Part shown: positions 1 through 21,141 of the stretch, piece by piece
Position numbering within the stretch: position 1 is the stretch's first letter
How the letters are laid out: each line of letters starts with the position of its first letter
IMG/VR virus record: IMGVR_UViG_3300009509_000107
Span: 1-23,039 of that record
Direction: 5' to 3' (one strand)
From: a virus
Length of the DNA: 23,039 bases
Notes under the pieces: generated by a model
The model's input: the letters and a program-made list of their open reading frames with translations, nothing else
What the model was told of the DNA's origin: nothing
Databases searched by the model: none
Program-made: the position numbers and the translations under genes

Positions 1-2046
1 GTTGGGTGACTTGAATGTCACCGGCACGGCTATGGTCCGGCCGTCAGCAGTCGTAACGTTGCGCGTTACAAGGAACCCATTGGTGTCATGCAGCACGTAA
101 CCGACTCCGGGCTGGTGCTCTGGGTAGAACCCAATGTCTTCACCATACCCAAGCTCGGCTCGGATGCCATCACTGTACCAGTCCATTGCTTTCTGTAGGT
201 CGTCCTGCTCTACGCCGGGCATGTTCACCCACACACCAGTGTCAGAGCCCTGAGGCTTGTACGCGACATGGTTGGCCTCGAACTTCTCGAAGTACATGTC
301 CAGCGCATCCTCGGCGGACATGCGCCCACCGCTCTTAACAATGGCAGACCGAACGAACGAGAGTGCCTCTTCCTGATACGCGGCAGTGTTCGCCATCTCG
401 TACTCGAAGCTGAATACTCCGGGGTCGTAGGTGCTGAGTCGATCGGACACTTCACCACTTATGACATTCGCCTGCTTGGCCGTCACCATCTTGTGGCCCA
501 ACTCTAGGGCCTCTGGTGAACCATAGGCACGGGCCATCTGGAACGCCTCTTCGGGAGGGACGCCGTTATTGATCTGCGTCTCGTACAGCTTGCGCCTTGC
601 GCGCATGTCATCGGAGATGTGGCTCTGAACTGCGGCCACACCTGAGGCGCCCTGAACTTCCATCAGGTTCATCGTGTTGATTGCCTCAACGAATGCACCG
701 AAGTTATCAGGCGACGGGTTAAGCTCGCGCTTCAGCACGTCCGACTTGCGGCCGGTGCCAACGGTGTTGTTAGACAGCACCCGCAGGGCATAGGCTGCTT
801 CTTGTGGATTGGACTCAGCGTTCTTATGGTAGTAGCTGATCAGGTTGCCATTGGTCTTGTCGATGATCTTGTCCCGGTCAGCGGACTTCAGCAGTCCCTC
901 GTCAACCAGTAGGTCGATCCCGGCGAAGTCGCCAGTCAGCATCAGCCCGTTCACCACGTTGGACATGTCGGCGGCATTCTTAGCCTTGGCCATGTTCTCA
1001 CGATCGGAGCGCGCCTGCTCGGCTGTCAGCAGTCCTGATTCAACAGCATCGTCCAGCATCTTCAGCTTCAGGCCACTGTTGGTCTCAGCCTCGAATGCCT
1101 TATAGAAGGCGTTCTGCCGGACCTCCTTGGACTTAACCTCGAACGCCGTCTTCGAGCGCTCAGCCTGTTCCTTGAACTCGGCAATAGCCGGGCCATAGGT
1201 CATGCTGGTGGACAGTCCGGGGATCGTTTGATCCGGCTTGTCGGTGTCCTGCGTAGCAATGTTGAACGCATCAAGCAGCTCGGGGCGTCCGGTGTCGACT
1301 GCGATCCTGCCGACGTTGGTGACCAACACCTTGTTGATCTCGTCAGACGTCAGACCGTTCATCTTGCCAAGCTCACGCATGGCGGCCTTGTCGGTGGCCA
1401 GGTCCTGAGCCGACTTGTTGTCCGCTCCAACTGAGAACGTCTGGTTCACAACAGCGGAGAAGTTGTCGATCTGCTTAGAGTGCGCGACCACTGATTGGTA
1501 CTTGGCATTCTTAGCAGTCAGCTCGGCCTCTACAGCCATCATTCCCTCGAGGTACGCAACGCGCATCTCAGGGCTGTCTACTCCTTGCAGGTCGGCCTTG
1601 ATCCTGTTGGCGACCATGTTCTGGATTTGGGCCTGCGTGAGGAACGCGTCAGGGTTCTCGTCGTAGATCGCATACAGGTCAGCGGTAGCCTTGGAGGCGC
1701 CCAGCTTGCCACTCATCAGGTCATAGCCCTTGATGAAGTAGATCGACTTGTCCATCGTGTCGGCAGTGCGGTCAGCCGCATCACCAGCCTCTAGGCGGGC
1801 TTGAGTGCCAAGCGCCAAGTCAGACTGGCGCTCCTTCACGATCTGCCCGCGTGCGACCTCTGAGGCAACCTGAGACAGGGTATTGAACGCCTGAGCGATC
1901 AGCTGCGTGTCGGGGTTTGCCTTAGGACGGTAGTCCCCTTGAGGAAGCGACATGCCGGTCGGATGAGCCTGTATGCGCAGGCCGGAAGGGCTCAGCGCAG
2001 GCTGTACCTCCGTTCGTACGCTTGCTCTTGTAGTATCTCTTGGCAT
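1..2046 (-). CDS. Internal virion protein C, T7 gp15-like (partial, C-terminus outside window)
   Basis: An open frame starts at the ATG at 2046 and runs without a stop to the left edge: 682 codons, 3' end missing. The product begins MPRDTTRASVRTEVQPALSP and is mostly hydrophilic, helical and rich in Ala, Asp, Glu and Lys, with no membrane segment. T7 gp15 is 747 aa, so most of the protein is visible. In T7, gp15 forms part of the core stacked on the portal inside the head and is ejected to help build the channel that carries DNA into the cell. The call rests on position (after gp14, at the far end of the structural genes), length and composition; no catalytic motif is visible. The start is supported by an AGGAG just upstream, 11 bp after the preceding stop. 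A shortened gp16-like protein is a less likely alternative. Confidence 0.75.
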   Translation of the reverse strand, partial: MPRDTTRASVRTEVQPALSPSGLRIQAHPTGMSLPQGDYRPKANPDTQLIAQAFNTLSQVASEVARGQIVKERQSDLALGTQARLEAGDAADRTADTMDKSIYFIKGYDLMSGKLGASKATADLYAIYDENPDAFLTQAQIQNMVANRIKADLQGVDSPEMRVAYLEGMMAVEAELTAKNAKYQSVVAHSKQIDNFSAVVNQTFSVGADNKSAQDLATDKAAMRELGKMNGLTSDEINKVLVTNVGRIAVDTGRPELLDAFNIATQDTDKPDQTIPGLSTSMTYGPAIAEFKEQAERSKTAFEVKSKEVRQNAFYKAFEAETNSGLKLKMLDDAVESGLLTAEQARSDRENMAKAKNAADMSNVVNGLMLTGDFAGIDLLVDEGLLKSADRDKIIDKTNGNLISYYHKNAESNPQEAAYALRVLSNNTVGTGRKSDVLKRELNPSPDNFGAFVEAINTMNLMEVQGASGVAAVQSHISDDMRARRKLYETQINNGVPPEEAFQMARAYGSPEALELGHKMVTAKQANVISGEVSDRLSTYDPGVFSFEYEMANTAAYQEEALSFVRSAIVKSGGRMSAEDALDMYFEKFEANHVAYKPQGSDTGVWVNMPGVEQDDLQKAMDWYSDGIRAELGYGEDIGFYPEHQPGVGYVLHDTNGFLVTRNVTTADGRTIAVPVTFKSPN

Positions 2047-2570: not shown

Positions 2571-4660
2571 TAGCGTCTCCTCCCCGCTCTGGGTGAATAG
2601 TTACCTTGCCACTCCGCGCTTACGATTGCGGAAGGAACATGGCTGTCGTTTATAAGGTCCATGGTTACGCGGCTGCTATCAGCAGACACAGGGTACCGGA
2701 ACGTGCCGGTCGTTATGTTGGGTGTACCGATCAACAGGTCGGCGGCCCCGATCAGCTTACCGCTGAACGTGTACTGGAACGTGGTTGCTCCCGACCTTGG
2801 GGTCACCTCTGCACGCAGGTAGCCAGTCTGCGAGTACCGGATGTTCATGGTACGCAGATGCAGCACTGCATTCAGGATTGGCGAGCCCTTGTCCGGGTCG
2901 GTTCCTTCGCGCATGAACAGCTCGGAGAACCGATACAGGAACGTGTAGATGTGTCCTATGTAGACCGGATGCGTGCTGAAGTCTCCATCGACTCTGACCT
3001 GATTAGTTCCAACGAGAGTATGTCCGGGGATGAGAGCACCGTAGCTTGAGGTCCATGCTCCTGACTTAACAAGCTGGAAGTCCGCAGCAGTGTGGGCAGT
3101 ATGGACGTAAGGTAGGGTCCAAGTTGTCCAATCATTAACACCATCATACACTCCAGTCAGTAGTACACGATCGTCGAGGTGGCACACGAAGCCCATCTCG
3201 GTTAGCGAGGGGTCATCCTGCAGATCAATCCGGTGCAGGTGGGTGCCATCAGTCTTGTCGACCAGCAGGAACAGGCTGGAGCCGATCACGTCCATAGACA
3301 GGATCGAGGTGTCGGTATCGAACTCCCAATACGACCACGCATTCTGCACCTTCTGATCGTTGAACCAGAAGTACTTGTACACGTAGAGCCGCTGCTGGTT
3401 GCCACTGGTCAGCACGAACAGCGTGTCATCGTTCTCAGCTACAGCCAGCTTGAAGACACCAGCGGGGATGTAGGCCGGCACGTGCGCCGTCACGTCCTCC
3501 GCAGTGTTCGCCACTTGGCTATCATCGGACACAGTGTACTCACGCAGCGATGCGAACAGGGTGTTCTCGCTTGGGAAGTAGGCTGAGTTGCCAGCCACCA
3601 CGGGCTTCGCTACGGAGTTCGCAGCGTAGTTCGTTGCCACGTCGATCGCAGCCGTGCTCGGGGTCAGTAGCTGGCCAGCTCCGGTCCCTAGGATGAACTG
3701 CGTTCCTTGGGACAGAGTGAGCAGCTGCTTGTTGAACGGCACTGCGAAGTTCAGCGTGGAGACCTTGATGTTCGCCGCGCGCACGTCGATGAAGTCATTG
3801 TCCAGTATGTCAGTGGCTGACTGCCTGAAGAAGTTCTGGTAGTCAGGACCTGACTGCGACAGGACGCAGTACTCACCGGCCAGCAGTCCGAGACGGTTGC
3901 GGAAGAAGAAGATGTCTCGGATGGAGCGCGAGATAATGTTCGGCTCAGGCAGCGAGGTCAGTGAGCCGGCCGGACGCGTGCCCCAAGTTTCCTTCTGGAA
4001 CGTGAAGGCAGAGCCAGACCACGTCAGCTTGTAGGGCATCTTGGCCGGGTCGAGGGTTGTGTTCACGCCAACAGCTGGGCACTCCTGCCAGTAGTAGCTA
4101 CCACCGGAGTTGACGCCTATGACATAGTAGCCAGTCAGCACAACGGAGTCGTCACCGACAATCCGGTACACCTGACCTACAGTGCCGGCACCAGCGGCCG
4201 GGAGATTGGCAAAGGTCTGCACATAGCCAGTGAACGTGCCACCTGCAACAGTGGCGTCGTAGTCGACCAGAATAGTCTTGTTGGCAACGTACGCAATGTC
4301 CTCCACGGCAACGACAGCGAAGTCGGTCACCGGGTCGGTCACGTTCAGGTACGTCTTGCCATCAGGGAAGTTGATGGTCTGGCTAACCCCAGCGGTGTCG
4401 AAGATGAACATGTCGTTATCGACGATGACCAGCAGGAACTGATCGGTGCCACCGTAGTCCAGCGTGGTCACATAGGCCGAACCATAAGGCGTGCCGGCCA
4501 GCTGAGCAATGTGGTACGAGGGTGGGCGCTTGATCAGACCATCAGACAAAGAGGGATAGCCGTTCACCAGTTGCTCGCACTGAGAGGCTTGCCGCAGGCT
4601 CGGTGGCTGTTGCGACACGCCATTAAGCAGCGACGGGATATTTCGGCTAACGAGAGGCAT
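2570..4660 (-). CDS. Tail tubular protein B (nozzle), T7 gp12-like
   Basis: This is a 696-aa protein; T7 gp12 is 794 aa. The N-terminus (MPLVSRNIPSLLNGVSQQPP, then a QCEQLVNGYPS stretch) is the highly recognisable signature of the T7 gp12 family, in which these first residues read almost the same across podophages. The rest is beta-rich, as expected for the nozzle that forms the distal tail tube below gp11 and helps attach the tail fibres. The C-terminus is basic (AGRRR) because the Shine-Dalgarno site of the next gene is encoded there. The ATG at 4660 overlaps the tail protein A stop by one base (TAATG), again with an AGGAG in the end of the upstream gene. Confidence 0.95.
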   Translation of the reverse strand: MPLVSRNIPSLLNGVSQQPPSLRQASQCEQLVNGYPSLSDGLIKRPPSYHIAQLAGTPYGSAYVTTLDYGGTDQFLLVIVDNDMFIFDTAGVSQTINFPDGKTYLNVTDPVTDFAVVAVEDIAYVANKTILVDYDATVAGGTFTGYVQTFANLPAAGAGTVGQVYRIVGDDSVVLTGYYVIGVNSGGSYYWQECPAVGVNTTLDPAKMPYKLTWSGSAFTFQKETWGTRPAGSLTSLPEPNIISRSIRDIFFFRNRLGLLAGEYCVLSQSGPDYQNFFRQSATDILDNDFIDVRAANIKVSTLNFAVPFNKQLLTLSQGTQFILGTGAGQLLTPSTAAIDVATNYAANSVAKPVVAGNSAYFPSENTLFASLREYTVSDDSQVANTAEDVTAHVPAYIPAGVFKLAVAENDDTLFVLTSGNQQRLYVYKYFWFNDQKVQNAWSYWEFDTDTSILSMDVIGSSLFLLVDKTDGTHLHRIDLQDDPSLTEMGFVCHLDDRVLLTGVYDGVNDWTTWTLPYVHTAHTAADFQLVKSGAWTSSYGALIPGHTLVGTNQVRVDGDFSTHPVYIGHIYTFLYRFSELFMREGTDPDKGSPILNAVLHLRTMNIRYSQTGYLRAEVTPRSGATTFQYTFSGKLIGAADLLIGTPNITTGTFRYPVSADSSRVTMDLINDSHVPSAIVSAEWQGNYSPRAGRRR

Positions 4661-5256
4661 TACAGTCTCCTAACTTGCATCCTAGCGATGCCTGAGCCCG
4701 GACCTTCCATCGAGCCTTCCATCATACTACGGTCGGCGTTCTTCAGCTCGGCCCGCTTGGCATTGGCGCGCGCAGTCTTCTCGTCTTCTTCAGTCAACTG
4801 AGAGCCGGTGCTGTCACCCAACATGCGGGCGGCGAATACTCGAGCTGCACGTACTGCCATGTACTGGCGGATGTACTGCGGGCAGTTCTCAAAGGTGAAC
4901 TCCCACGTCACGTCACAGTACAGGGCGTCGGTGAATACGAAGGTCTGGTCGGTCTTGTTATAAAGTTTGCCCGCGCGGACAGTGACACTTACGTCGCTGG
5001 AGCGGGCGCTGGTATCGACGGCAAGCATGTCGTCGGTAATAAGAATGTTGCCGCTCATGTCAGGCGACAACAGGTAGTCTTCATCGAAGTTGAACTCCCA
5101 GCGGCCATTCAGCACCGCTCGGGTAGTCTCATCCAGTATGACAATAGCCGTGGCAACGAACACGTCTCCTTCGGCGCCTGTCAGGGTGCTTACCGGGGAC
5201 TCACCGATGTTTGACAGCATCAGGTTCACGGCTTGGAGTTTGGTCATTCCGGCCAT
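4660..5256 (-). CDS. Tail tubular protein A (gatekeeper), T7 gp11-like
   Basis: This is a 198-aa protein, against 196 aa for T7 gp11. The family signature is at the N-terminus: KLQAVNLMLSNIGESPVSTL, followed by acidic residues and a conserved NGRWEFNFDEDYLL-type segment around residues 50-63, then an ITDDMLAVD beta segment and an Arg/Ala-rich helix. In T7, gp11 forms the ring joining the portal to the nozzle protein gp12. The start at 5256 is preceded by GGAGG at good spacing. The gene follows a strong terminator, so its expression depends on read-through of that terminator or on a promoter I could not identify. Confidence 0.93.
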   Translation of the reverse strand: MAGMTKLQAVNLMLSNIGESPVSTLTGAEGDVFVATAIVILDETTRAVLNGRWEFNFDEDYLLSPDMSGNILITDDMLAVDTSARSSDVSVTVRAGKLYNKTDQTFVFTDALYCDVTWEFTFENCPQYIRQYMAVRAARVFAARMLGDSTGSQLTEEDEKTARANAKRAELKNADRSMMEGSMEGPGSGIARMQVRRL

Positions 5257-11789: not shown

Positions 11790-12167
11790 TTATCTCCTTG
11801 GACAGTTAAGGTTCATGCAGGTTGCACAGTCGTTGCACTCATCCTCATTCAGTGAGTACGCATGCTCCGACTCTGAGATTAGGACACCGAAGGTCTCAGG
11901 CTTCTTGTACTGCTCCGGCTCGTCCCACTGCTTCAGGTCCAACTCCCTTACTAAGTAGTCGGTCAGCATCTTGGCGTAGGTCTCAGCCTTCGCAATGTCC
12001 TGCTCCAGCTTGTCCTTCTTGCCAGCCCGCAGCCGGTACTTCAGGACGTTGCCCTTGCAGTAACCCCGGAACTCCTCCGGGGTCAGCGTGGCGCGGATGA
12101 CGTCGATGGCTTCTGTTCCATCTGCGAACAGCATGTAGTGGTTGGGCTTGCTGACGGGATCGCTCAT
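11790..12167 (-). CDS. DUF3310 / T7 gp1.7-like nucleotide kinase family protein with Cys-rich tail
   Basis: This is a 125-aa protein. It starts MSDPVSKPNHYMLFADGTEA, followed by IDVIRATLTPEEFRGYCKGNVLKYRLRAGKKDKLEQDIAKA. These are the DUF3310 marks: a DPV.HY motif, an ECID-like IDVIR, GN..KY..RAGKKD, and a Lys/Ala helix. T7 gp1.7 is a nucleotide kinase acting on dGMP and dTMP. After a spacer, the end holds four cysteines (C-x2-C-x2-C-x4-CP). The ATG at 12167 overlaps the stop of the preceding gene by four bases (ATGA); an upstream in-frame start would lie deeper in that gene and is less likely. The gene sits directly before the ribonucleotide reductase, pointing to a nucleotide supply unit. 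Confidence 0.8.
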   Translation of the reverse strand: MSDPVSKPNHYMLFADGTEAIDVIRATLTPEEFRGYCKGNVLKYRLRAGKKDKLEQDIAKAETYAKMLTDYLVRELDLKQWDEPEQYKKPETFGVLISESEHAYSLNEDECNDCATCMNLNCPRR

Positions 12168-12406
12168 TTCCACACCACTGCAAGCAGCAGCCACGGCAGT
12201 AAGATAGCCATGATGTGCCCTCCTAGGTAAGCCGAGGCTCTGATGAACTCAACGAACACGTTGACGTATGCGTGACTGAAATCGTCGCGCGCCATGGCAC
12301 CGGACTTCTTGCTGAGCAGGTGCGTCAGGGAGTACCAGAAGCGCCCCACGTCCCACGTCCACCAGTCACGGTAATCTTCACTTACTTTACGGACTCGAAA
12401 TCCCAC
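12164..12406 (-). CDS. 80-aa small membrane protein
   Basis: No family is recognised. The product has a basic, Trp-rich N-terminal half (DYRDWWTWDVGRFWYSL) and a hydrophobic C-terminal segment (about residues 55-79: LGGHIMAILLPWLLLAVVW), likely one membrane helix. The best start is GTG at 12406, with AGAGGG 8 bases upstream, inside the end of the exonuclease gene (25-base overlap). The stop overlaps the next gene by ATGA. The tight overlaps on both sides support it as a real gene; the exact start is less sure because ATG codons further in are possible. Confidence 0.65.
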   Translation of the reverse strand: MGFRVRKVSEDYRDWWTWDVGRFWYSLTHLLSKKSGAMARDDFSHAYVNVFVEFIRASAYLGGHIMAILLPWLLLAVVWK

Positions 12407-13206
12407 GGTATTACCCTCTTGTGTTTGTAGTCATAATCCTCATGGCGGCAGATGCGCGCCACGCGGGCCTGTGCTAATGCGTCTTCTTCGGTGAAGCCTT
12501 TGGTCTCGTACAGTGCCACGACCATCGGCCAGAACTGTTTCACGGTCATGCCCTCGCAGTCCTTCATCTCGCCGAGGGTTCTGATGGCGGCCACCTTGCC
12601 GGCGCCGGGACACCCCTTGTACCCATCGGTCGCGTCCCCAATGATGGTCTGATACATCCAGTACCAGTCGGCCATGGACTCGGTGATGCGTTCCAGTTTC
12701 GCCTCGCCCTTCATCGGCAGGTGGTATAGCAGATTGTCTGAGCCACGCTGCTTACGCGAAGGGATGGTGCGAAGGTCCTTGTCGATCGTCACGATGATCT
12801 TCCGACCCTTGATGTAGTTCGGGTTGGTCGCGAGTATCCCGAGGATGTCATCACCTTCAAGTCGCGGCCTACGGTAGGCCTCGAAGTGTTCTGCCAGAAC
12901 TACCTCAAGCATGTCGTGCAGGATGGGGCGAGACTTGCGCTCACCCCTGCACTCCTTGTAGCTGGGCAGAACGTCCAACCTCCAGTTAGCTCGTCGGTTC
13001 AGGTCGGTGAAGCAGAGCACCACGTTGTCGGCGTCCAGCTTCCCCTTCAGATCGTCGATGTACTCGAGCATCCCGGCTATTGCAACTTGCTCGGGAGGGG
13101 GGATCACAATCGGGTCATCCCCCTCATCCCAGACTATCTCCGACTGTCCGCGCGCGGCGAACTGGTATGCCGGCACATCAGCGTCCAGTAGGATTGTCGT
13201 CTTCAT
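12382..13206 (-). CDS. 5'-3' exonuclease, FEN/PIN family (T7 gp6 role)
   Basis: This is a 274-aa protein; T7 gp6 is 300 aa. It has the metal-binding set of the flap endonuclease family: LLDADVPAYQ (D8, D10), the helical-arch region with YKECRGERKSRP, RLEGDDILGIL (E, D, D), VTIDKDLRTIPS (D, D) and GDATDGYKGCPGAGKVAA. The last is the GD..D start of the helix-three-turn-helix that binds DNA. In T7, gp6 removes RNA primers and degrades host DNA to nucleotides. The ATG overlaps the previous stop by four bases, showing coupling. It sits after the polymerase, as in T7, but with four or five small genes in between. Confidence 0.93.
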   Translation of the reverse strand: MKTTILLDADVPAYQFAARGQSEIVWDEGDDPIVIPPPEQVAIAGMLEYIDDLKGKLDADNVVLCFTDLNRRANWRLDVLPSYKECRGERKSRPILHDMLEVVLAEHFEAYRRPRLEGDDILGILATNPNYIKGRKIIVTIDKDLRTIPSRKQRGSDNLLYHLPMKGEAKLERITESMADWYWMYQTIIGDATDGYKGCPGAGKVAAIRTLGEMKDCEGMTVKQFWPMVVALYETKGFTEEDALAQARVARICRHEDYDYKHKRVIPWDFESVK

Positions 13207-13517
13207 GTCTGTCCCCTTCTGAGTTTGTCGATGAGGTCGGTGAGCCGGTCCATCACTGGTATGACAGACGGGTCGCGAACACTGAATAGCTGCTTGCGGA
13301 GTCCGCTCAGCTCCTCAATGACATCCCCGAAGATTGTCCGCTGGATTCCCTCGGACAACAGCCGACGCGAGCGGATGGTTACCTCGCGTTCGCTTTGGCT
13401 CAGCAGCGCGTCAGAGATAGACATCTGTGAGTGGAAGGTGAGTACTGCCTTGACCATCTTCTGCTGGTGGACATAGTCATCCCACGTATGGAACTGAATG
13501 TCGTTGAGGAATTTCAT
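13203..13517 (-). CDS. 104-aa hypothetical protein
   Basis: No family is recognised. It is a soluble, helical protein with alternating charge, rich in Leu, Arg, Ser and Asp. The N-terminus is MKFLNDIQFHTWDDYVHQQK; the middle has SQSEREVTIRSRRLLSEGIQ, and the end is a likely coiled or amphipathic helix (VMDRLTDLIDKLRRGQT). There are no cysteines and no membrane segment. It overlaps both neighbours by four bases (ATGA at start and end), so it is translated with the membrane protein before it and the exonuclease after it. This arrangement makes the gene itself quite certain although its job is unknown. Confidence 0.8.
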   Translation of the reverse strand: MKFLNDIQFHTWDDYVHQQKMVKAVLTFHSQMSISDALLSQSEREVTIRSRRLLSEGIQRTIFGDVIEELSGLRKQLFSVRDPSVIPVMDRLTDLIDKLRRGQT

Positions 13518-13924
13518 TTACTGCCTCCGTATCCAAAGTAAAGCCCGGCCACCGAAGCAGCGAGGTGTGTATCAAGTGGAGTTATCGGAACCCCGGCCAC
13601 CGTGTAGTACACCGTACCGGCGGATGAGGAGAATAAGCCCCACAAATAGGACACTCCCGGCTCCGACGTAAAGACTACTACGGGCGCGCCACCCAAGGCC
13701 GCGAGCTTCGGCAATACTACAACCGCAAAGATCACCGTGAGTGCTATCGTCCGGCGTGTGAACTGAAACTGCTGAGTCCCGCTGTTGCTGCGAGCAATCG
13801 CATCCTTGTTCAGAGACTCCATCATTGTCTGCTGGGCTTTGGCCTTGGCGTCCATTGCCTTGCCAATCATTCCAACTACCGTGGACACGCCCATGGTCAG
13901 CATTTCTAGTGGTATAGGGATCAT
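13514..13924 (-). CDS. 136-aa membrane protein, holin candidate
   Basis: The chosen start is the ATG at 13924 (MIPIPLEMLTMGVSTVVGMI). A longer version from a TTG at 13960 is possible but has a less natural N-terminus. The protein has an amphipathic N-terminal region, a Lys/Ala/Gln-rich helix (KAMDAKAKAQQTMMESLNKD) and an RR-flanked membrane helix (TIALTVIFAVVVLPKLAALG). A second hydrophobic part contains VSYLWGLFSSS, and a C-terminal stretch (LAASVAGLYFGYG) may form a third helix. The pattern of a charged N-terminal helix followed by two or three membrane segments resembles small three-helix phage holins, so a lysis role is possible but not shown. Another ORF in a different frame (13572-13991) covers most of it. 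No clear ribosome site precedes the ATG. Confidence 0.65.
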   Translation of the reverse strand: MIPIPLEMLTMGVSTVVGMIGKAMDAKAKAQQTMMESLNKDAIARSNSGTQQFQFTRRTIALTVIFAVVVLPKLAALGGAPVVVFTSEPGVSYLWGLFSSSAGTVYYTVAGVPITPLDTHLAASVAGLYFGYGGSK

Positions 13925-13991
13925 TGGTAGGTACCGAGGTACAGCCAGTGGCCGCCACAAGGGCGACCACCAGCAGCAGCTTTAGTGACAT
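13572..13991 (-). CDS. Overlapping ORF with lipoprotein signal peptide
   Basis: This 139-codon frame begins with a textbook-like export signal: MSLKLLLVVALVAATGCTSV, with Lys, a hydrophobic core and a lipobox-like ATGC at residues 14-17 (Cys17 would be lipidated). Its ATG lies 10 bases before the end of the previous gene. It fills the 57-base gap between the previous stop and the ATG of the membrane protein, and the gap is unusual in this packed region. The remainder overlaps the membrane protein gene in another frame. It is low in complexity and looks like a shadow apart from a C-terminal hydrophobic segment (LYVGAGSVLFVGLILLIRRY). It may be a true overlapping lipoprotein gene, or only the first part may matter. 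Confidence 0.4.
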   Translation of the reverse strand: MSLKLLLVVALVAATGCTSVPTNDPYTTRNADHGRVHGSWNDWQGNGRQGQSPADNDGVSEQGCDCSQQQRDSAVSVHTPDDSTHGDLCGCSIAEARGLGWRARSSLYVGAGSVLFVGLILLIRRYGVLHGGRGSDNST

Positions 13992-14242
13992 ACCGGCTTG
14001 TCGTCTTCGCCGAAGGATACCTCTGCGGAATCCAACGTGCCGTCACGATGCGCACGGTACAGGGATGCGATGAATGTTACCAGTGCCCGGCGAGATGCGG
14101 TGTTCAGCAGCTGCATCACCATCTTCAGTACGACTGCGATGGAGTAGGACATTGAGGTCTGGTCTGGGTCTTCACCCTCGACCAGCTCGCTGAATACCGG
14201 ACGACCGCCTTCATCGTCTTCAAGAATCATGGTTACTTTCAT
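13982..14242 (-). CDS. 86-aa hypothetical protein
   Basis: No family is recognised. The protein starts MKVTMILEDDEGGRPVFSEL, has an acidic loop (VEGEDPDQTS), a central helix with some hydrophobic character (YSIAVVLKMVMQLLNTAS) and a helix with basic residues (RRALVTFIASLYRAHRDG), and ends in an acidic tail. It shares a general plan with the 86-aa protein encoded just upstream: a short beta start, an acidic or polar loop, then a helix rich in Leu and Ala. The two may be related by duplication, but the identity is low by eye. The ATG overlaps the upstream stop by four bases. Confidence 0.75.
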   Translation of the reverse strand: MKVTMILEDDEGGRPVFSELVEGEDPDQTSMSYSIAVVLKMVMQLLNTASRRALVTFIASLYRAHRDGTLDSAEVSFGEDDKPVCH

Positions 14243-20469: not shown

Positions 20470-20716
20470 CGTTGTCCTCCTGTTCGTTTGGGTTGTCCAC
20501 TATGCAGGTAATTACTTTGGTGCCCATCAGATGACTGGGTCCACGGTACTCATAGATGTTCTTGGCCAAGTGGTCCGGTAGTGAGTCGAGCTGCTGCTGC
20601 GCCAAGTCAATCTGGTGCTGCAGCCAGTTGTCCTGCGCTTCCCTGCGCCGGTCCTTGTGCGCCGCGCCCTTCCCCAAGATCGGGGGCAGGCGTGGCATAC
20701 GGGTCTTGCGTCCCAT
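20462..20716 (-). CDS. 84-aa basic hypothetical protein
   Basis: The start at 20716 (MGRKTRMPRLPPILGKGAAH) shares a base with the HNH stop (TGATG); an ATG four codons upstream is also possible. The N-terminus is very basic and Pro-rich, the middle is a Gln/Asp-rich helix (NWLQHQIDLAQQQLDSLPDH), and the end is acidic (VDNPNEQEDNDA). No cysteine pair or membrane segment is visible. The basic start could bind nucleic acid. Its function is unknown. Confidence 0.65.
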   Translation of the reverse strand: MGRKTRMPRLPPILGKGAAHKDRRREAQDNWLQHQIDLAQQQLDSLPDHLAKNIYEYRGPSHLMGTKVITCIVDNPNEQEDNDA

Positions 20717-21141
20717 CAGGCTACCCAAGAATGAGACTTGTGCAGCTGGTGCAGCCGGACGTGCTGCTCGCGCGTCAGGTACTCGAGGTTGTCCGGCCGG
20801 TTGTTCATGGAGTTGAAGTCGATGTGGTGAAGCTCCATCCCCTCCGGCCTCTCACCCAGAAACGCCAGCGCTACCAGCTCATGGACGCCGATGCGGATGC
20901 GCTTGCCCTCCGCATTGATGGGGCCTACGCGCAGGTAGTCCGGGGCTGTCGGGGTTGTCCAGTAGCACAACAGGTTGCCGGACTTCCCGATGATCTCCCC
21001 CTCCTCGGTGGCGTAGTAGCCGGGGAACCCCGGTATCGGGAGCTTCTTGACCAGCTGGGCCTTCAGCTCGGCCAGCTCGTTATGGGCGCAGGCCAGTAGG
21101 TAGGAGATGTGGTTGATGCGACGGTTGGTTTCATTGCTCAT
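20716..21141 (-). CDS. HNH homing-type endonuclease with NUMOD4-like motif
   Basis: This is a 141-aa protein. After a helical N-terminus (about 30 residues), a NUMOD4-like motif is seen (IPGFPGYYATEEGEIIGKSG, about 51-70), which often binds DNA in homing endonucleases. The HNH domain follows: HELVALAFLGERPEGMELHH, with ID, then FNSMNNRPDNLEYLT. The His-His-Asn set and NN..NLE are the marks of the metal-binding catalytic fold. GGAGG lies before the ATG, 11 bases after the RNA polymerase stop. As a free-standing HNH gene with no intron visible, it is likely a selfish element spreading among related phages, or a nuclease harming competing phage or host DNA. Confidence 0.88.
   Translation of the reverse strand: MSNETNRRINHISYLLACAHNELAELKAQLVKKLPIPGFPGYYATEEGEIIGKSGNLLCYWTTPTAPDYLRVGPINAEGKRIRIGVHELVALAFLGERPEGMELHHIDFNSMNNRPDNLEYLTREQHVRLHQLHKSHSWVA

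Follow-up and report, generated by a model that had tools for sequence, protein, structure and literature searches.

A lipoprotein frame of probable u-spanin type overlapping a holin-like membrane protein gene in a T7-like podophage fragment

A conserved lipoprotein gene is read in a second frame across a membrane protein gene in a viral DNA fragment. The overlapping pair is real, and it is unusual in its arrangement and origin. Both readings of the 353-base overlap are kept by selection, and dual coding is well supported. Quite probably, the pair belongs to the lysis machinery, a u-spanin reading frame having been overprinted on an older holin-type gene and the two having since been exchanged as one piece. 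We infer the export, topology and lysis function of the lipoprotein and the holin function of its partner.

The window, i.e. the whole stretch of 23,039 nucleotides that was analysed, covers part of the genome of a T7-like podophage, with genes for RNA polymerase, helicase-primase, a family A DNA polymerase, exonuclease, head-tail connector and nozzle proteins. An HNH endonuclease gene (20716-21141, minus strand) was observed directly behind the RNA polymerase gene. A first-pass annotation had described a lipoprotein-like frame of 139 codons that starts at 13991, 10 bases inside the previous gene, and crosses a membrane protein gene in the +1 frame, with 57 bases between the two ordinary genes. 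All these numbers were confirmed. The lipoprotein frame has its ATG at 13991 and ends at 13572, and the membrane protein gene has its ATG at 13924 and its stop at 13514. The features of the locus in window coordinates are:

13982..14242, minus strand: preceding gene, 86 amino acids, function unknown; shares 10 bases with the start of the lipoprotein frame
13572..13991, minus strand: u-spanin-like lipoprotein gene, 139 codons; open and conserved in all five clade members
13941..13991, minus strand: lipoprotein signal peptide MSLKLLLVVALVAATG and lipid-acceptor Cys17, lipobox ATGC; PROSITE-type lipobox pattern
13680..13940, minus strand: polar linker, residues 18-104, predicted periplasmic, 4 cysteines; 84-90 residues in all five
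13623..13679, minus strand: predicted transmembrane segment SSLYVGAGSVLFVGLILLI, residues 105-123; from hydropathy and an AlphaFold helix
13575..13622, minus strand: C-terminal tail of 16 residues starting with RR, predicted cytoplasmic; exactly 16 in all five
13514..13924, minus strand: holin-like membrane protein gene, 136 amino acids; PHROG 38283 (unknown function)
13572..13924, minus strand: dual-frame region, the last 353 bases of the lipoprotein frame
13617..13696, minus strand: near-invariant tract of about 80 bases, coding for the juxtamembrane and transmembrane part of the lipoprotein

A clear Shine-Dalgarno sequence was not found at the lipoprotein start, and translation is likely coupled to the preceding gene. 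Further along the strand, a small protein with a C-terminal hydrophobic segment is encoded at 12164-12406 (minus strand), overlapping both 12382-13206 and 11790-12194; it could be another lysis or membrane gene.

The frame was followed in a clade of five sequences, the window contig and four relatives (L002 to L005) with a membrane protein identity of 77-91%. A longer contig, L001, encodes a membrane protein identical to that of the window. When viral contigs were scanned with three different queries, the same five overlap-bearing contigs were found each time; one genome scan yielded no relative. In all four relatives the second frame is open across the same 116 overlap codons and ends at the same point, and no clade member has a stop before codon 117. 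Each starts with a lipoprotein signal, followed by the linker, a single C-terminal hydrophobic segment of 19 residues (mean hydropathy 1.99-2.13) and the tail. All five members thus keep the frame together with its signal, its linker length, its transmembrane segment and its tail, far above what chance would give.

The proposed lipoprotein signal was borne out by the relatives, since the lipobox pattern is matched in every member (ATGC in the window, AAGC, LSAC, TAGC and STAC), with LSAC as the only one that fits the strictest consensus. The linker contains 2-4 cysteines across the five. Both proteins of the pair were modelled with AlphaFold, and the models are poor (mean pLDDT 46.0 and 48.9). 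In that of the lipoprotein, a helix from residue 95 to 131 contains the predicted transmembrane segment, and neither a beta-rich periplasmic domain nor strands appear in this model of very low confidence (mean pLDDT 46). The lipoprotein gave no significant match to Pfam and PHROG profiles, and tblastn against phage records gave no match.

Upstream of the overlap the clade members differ. The signal regions of the window with L002, of L003, of L004 and of L005 align poorly in DNA, and DNA similarity rises abruptly close to where the membrane gene begins. In L003 to L005 the signal itself overlaps the end of a different upstream gene. The lipoprotein signal is therefore present in several unlike upstream settings. 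L003 to L005 belong to another phage lineage than the window. L003 encodes an SU10-type portal, a DnaB-type helicase and a T7-type endonuclease I. Between the lineages the membrane proteins are 76-80% and the lipoproteins 40-47% identical at the protein level, and the next best common gene, the exonuclease, has about 27-31% identity. Apart from this pair the two lineages have little in common; the pair therefore seems to travel as a unit and to have been exchanged between them as one piece.

For comparison with chance, the synonymous codons of each membrane gene were resampled from the codon usage of the same phage, under one null with saturated synonymous sites and two tighter ones. The chance of an open second frame was 0.108, 0.167, 0.014, 0.140 and 0.093 for the five contigs. 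With saturated sites, none of 3000 sets had all five open together; with the fourfold-site identity fixed at 0.52, about the level observed for the whole overlap, 9 of 3000 did. The exact counts from all these null sets are indicative, since kinship was simplified to a star-like form. In the second half of the overlap, the sum-of-pairs conservation of the lipoprotein was 2134, compared to null means from 997 (SD 105) to 1565 (SD 124), and no set of the 3000 reached the observed value under any null. The hydropathy of the C-terminal segment was 0.46-0.93 in the saturated null, well below the observed range, and the two tighter nulls matched the observed values in 1-8% of the sets for a given contig. 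Hence, the hydrophobic segment and the conservation of the second frame are not forced by the membrane protein.

The comparison of synonymous-site constraint among relatives, proposed by the first-pass annotation, gave a fourfold-site identity of 0.57 in codons 53-117, which is higher than in codons 1-52 (0.35) and outside the overlap (0.30). A comparison gene of L003 to L005 with similar protein identity had 0.36-0.46. In the tract of about 80 bases at 13617..13696, even the synonymous sites are nearly invariant in the five contigs.

Of the two hydrophobic helices of the membrane protein, that at about residues 59-77 is strong and that at about 116-131 is weaker. In three roseophages its homologue overlaps or directly follows genes for peptidoglycan hydrolases of the SLT, Hydrolase_2 and LysM/GH19 kinds. 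Given these helices and the position of the homologues behind three kinds of hydrolase gene, a holin is the likeliest role, and the protein is probably a holin on grounds of context and hydrophobicity. Holin profiles, including those of Pfam, matched the protein in none of the clade members. Near the overlapping pair, no canonical endolysin was found in the window or the contigs. Lysozyme domains were found only in large virion proteins. One of these is encoded at 1-2046 (minus strand) of the window and continues in L113 (6674-9568); its lysozyme domain (PF00959, E 1e-26) sits at the far end of the protein, which is cut off in the window, and a separate endolysin gene was not seen.

Two further observations concern holin-like genes and homologues. 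L003 encodes a 90-residue membrane protein (1073-1345, plus strand) that matches phrog_7045 (holin, E 8.7e-11), so this contig may have two holin-like genes, and the membrane protein of the pair could act in it as an additional holin or as an antiholin. In Skadi-4 (L019, 3001-3432) and similar pelagiphage records the homologue is annotated as 'peptidase M15'. Pfam found no peptidase domain in the Skadi-4 protein, and the label on the pelagiphage homologues is probably a copied misannotation.

A u-spanin is defined by an N-terminal lipoylation signal and a C-terminal transmembrane domain in one chain (PMC6139136). If the lipoprotein works in this way, it would be exported, cleaved and lipidated at Cys17. 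The lipid would take it to the outer membrane, the C-terminal transmembrane segment would remain in the inner one, and a single molecule would in this way bridge the envelope. After degradation of the peptidoglycan, it would join the two membranes and disrupt the outer one. The product of the overlapping gene, as a holin-type inner-membrane protein, would help to open the inner membrane.

It is also conceivable, though we consider it unlikely, that the lipoprotein gene is real and its product is an o-spanin with a separate i-spanin, or has another role in the envelope such as the exclusion of other phages, the hydrophobic segment serving otherwise. Directly downstream of the pair, L003 (4411-4689), L004 (about 4411-4662) and L005 (4404-4667, all plus strand) encode proteins of 80-92 residues with an N-terminal hydrophobic segment, which are membrane-anchored. 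For the L005 protein, the similarity to an Rz-like spanin family is not significant (E 0.015). These small proteins might be i-spanins and could make a two-component system in the three contigs. The cysteines of the linker point in the same direction, since they are usual in two-component spanins (PMC6139136). However, a different gene, one without an evident membrane segment, follows the pair in the window and in L002, and the C-terminal hydrophobic segment is found in all five members beyond what the other frame forces.

A frameshift that fuses the signal with the membrane protein had been suggested earlier and is very improbable; its product would be a lipid-anchored variant of that protein. 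The signal is indeed encoded just ahead of the membrane protein gene, in a frame that runs over the start of that gene. Yet the lipoprotein frame is conserved over its whole length and most strongly towards its far end, a part that would be missing from a frameshift product, and the junction DNA is not specially conserved. A chance origin, in which the G+C-rich codons of a conserved membrane protein incidentally leave the other frame open and the lipobox-like starts are accidental, is just as hard to credit and was rejected. Taken singly, the window is not very remarkable, as its membrane protein and codon usage leave a second frame open with a probability of about 0.11, and about 1-4% of open frames start with a lipobox-like N-terminus by chance. 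But the signal, hydrophobic segment and equal tail recur in five of five members, the observed conservation was never reached in the null sets, and synonymous constraint increases where the lipoprotein is most conserved.

Returning to a u-spanin over a holin-type gene, its origin can be traced in the homologues of the membrane protein from roseophages, pelagiphages and other viruses, which have 25-44% identity. In these outgroup genes, the frame that corresponds to the lipoprotein is interrupted by 5-15 stops. In a wider scan with 76 further distant homologues, the second frame was broken in the 46 that were checked, and it was broken in 14 isolated or named phages too. Lipoprotein genes of o-spanin type did not recur near the outgroup homologues. 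Relatives that break the lipoprotein frame had been named as evidence against the gene. None occurs among the near relatives (at least 77% identity), whereas the distant ones lack the frame, which dates the overlap and does not refute it. Because the distant homologues have so many stops in the second frame, overprinting is the simplest account, and the second gene was probably overprinted on an older holin-type gene within the clade. The membrane protein residues 77-112 have a pairwise identity of 0.61 among the outgroup phages versus 0.91 within the clade, and the same stretch codes for the juxtamembrane and transmembrane part of the lipoprotein.

The chances are about even that a complete u-spanin arose de novo over a holin-type gene and that the module spreads between unrelated phages, with the signals supplied upstream locally. 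If the lysis reading is true, the disruption of the inner and the outer membrane is coded by one piece of DNA. The birth of the u-spanin could then be placed, as the ancestral holin-type gene without the second frame exists in many phages, and the derived form reveals the segment in which the new frame has frozen the older protein. The present pair also suggests that some spanin genes absent from annotations may hide over holin genes, because gene callers tend to drop overlaps. About 13% of the surveyed phages are without a spanin gene, and u-spanins, whose origin is unknown, have no sequence in common with o-spanins (PMC6139136).

In the mainly open-access literature, we found no description of a u-spanin that overlaps a holin-type gene. 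The roseophage and pelagiphage proteins of PHROG 38283 are homologues of the membrane protein, in roseophages directly behind hydrolase genes, but their second frame is filled with stops and encodes no lipoprotein. The lysis cassette of the KP34-like phages, with the u-spanin, holin and endolysin genes one after the other, resembles the present locus in being from T7-like phages and in having the u-spanin first and the holin second; there, the spanin and holin genes are not described as overlapping, and the endolysin comes next (PMC4411677).

Neither in sequence nor in profile searches did the lipoprotein resemble any known u-spanin. In its layout it is like the T1 gp11 type, with a lipoprotein signal, a periplasmic linker, one C-terminal transmembrane segment, a short tail and a holin-type gene adjoining. 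It differs from this type in that most of the gene overlaps the holin-type gene in another frame, and in having linker cysteines and no predicted beta structure in a model of very low confidence. A beta-rich periplasmic domain is typical of the T1 gp11 family and lies outside the u-spanin definition. The same is true for the lack of periplasmic cysteines, a trait of all 58 catalogued u-spanins (PMC6139136) that the present protein does not share.

The first-pass annotation had been reminded of Rz/Rz1-type lysis pairs. The likeness to lysis genes and the overlap stand: in the two-component spanins of lambda (Rz/Rz1) and P2, a lipoprotein gene also overlaps a membrane protein gene in another frame. 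The reading as such a pair is less apt than that as a u-spanin, because the lipoprotein carries its own C-terminal transmembrane segment. An i-spanin partner would have an N-terminal transmembrane segment and a helical periplasmic domain. Here, in contrast to lambda and P2, the lipoprotein starts first, and its partner looks holin-like and unlike an i-spanin, with homologues right behind hydrolase genes and with its hydrophobic helices in the second half, at about residues 59-77 and 116-131.
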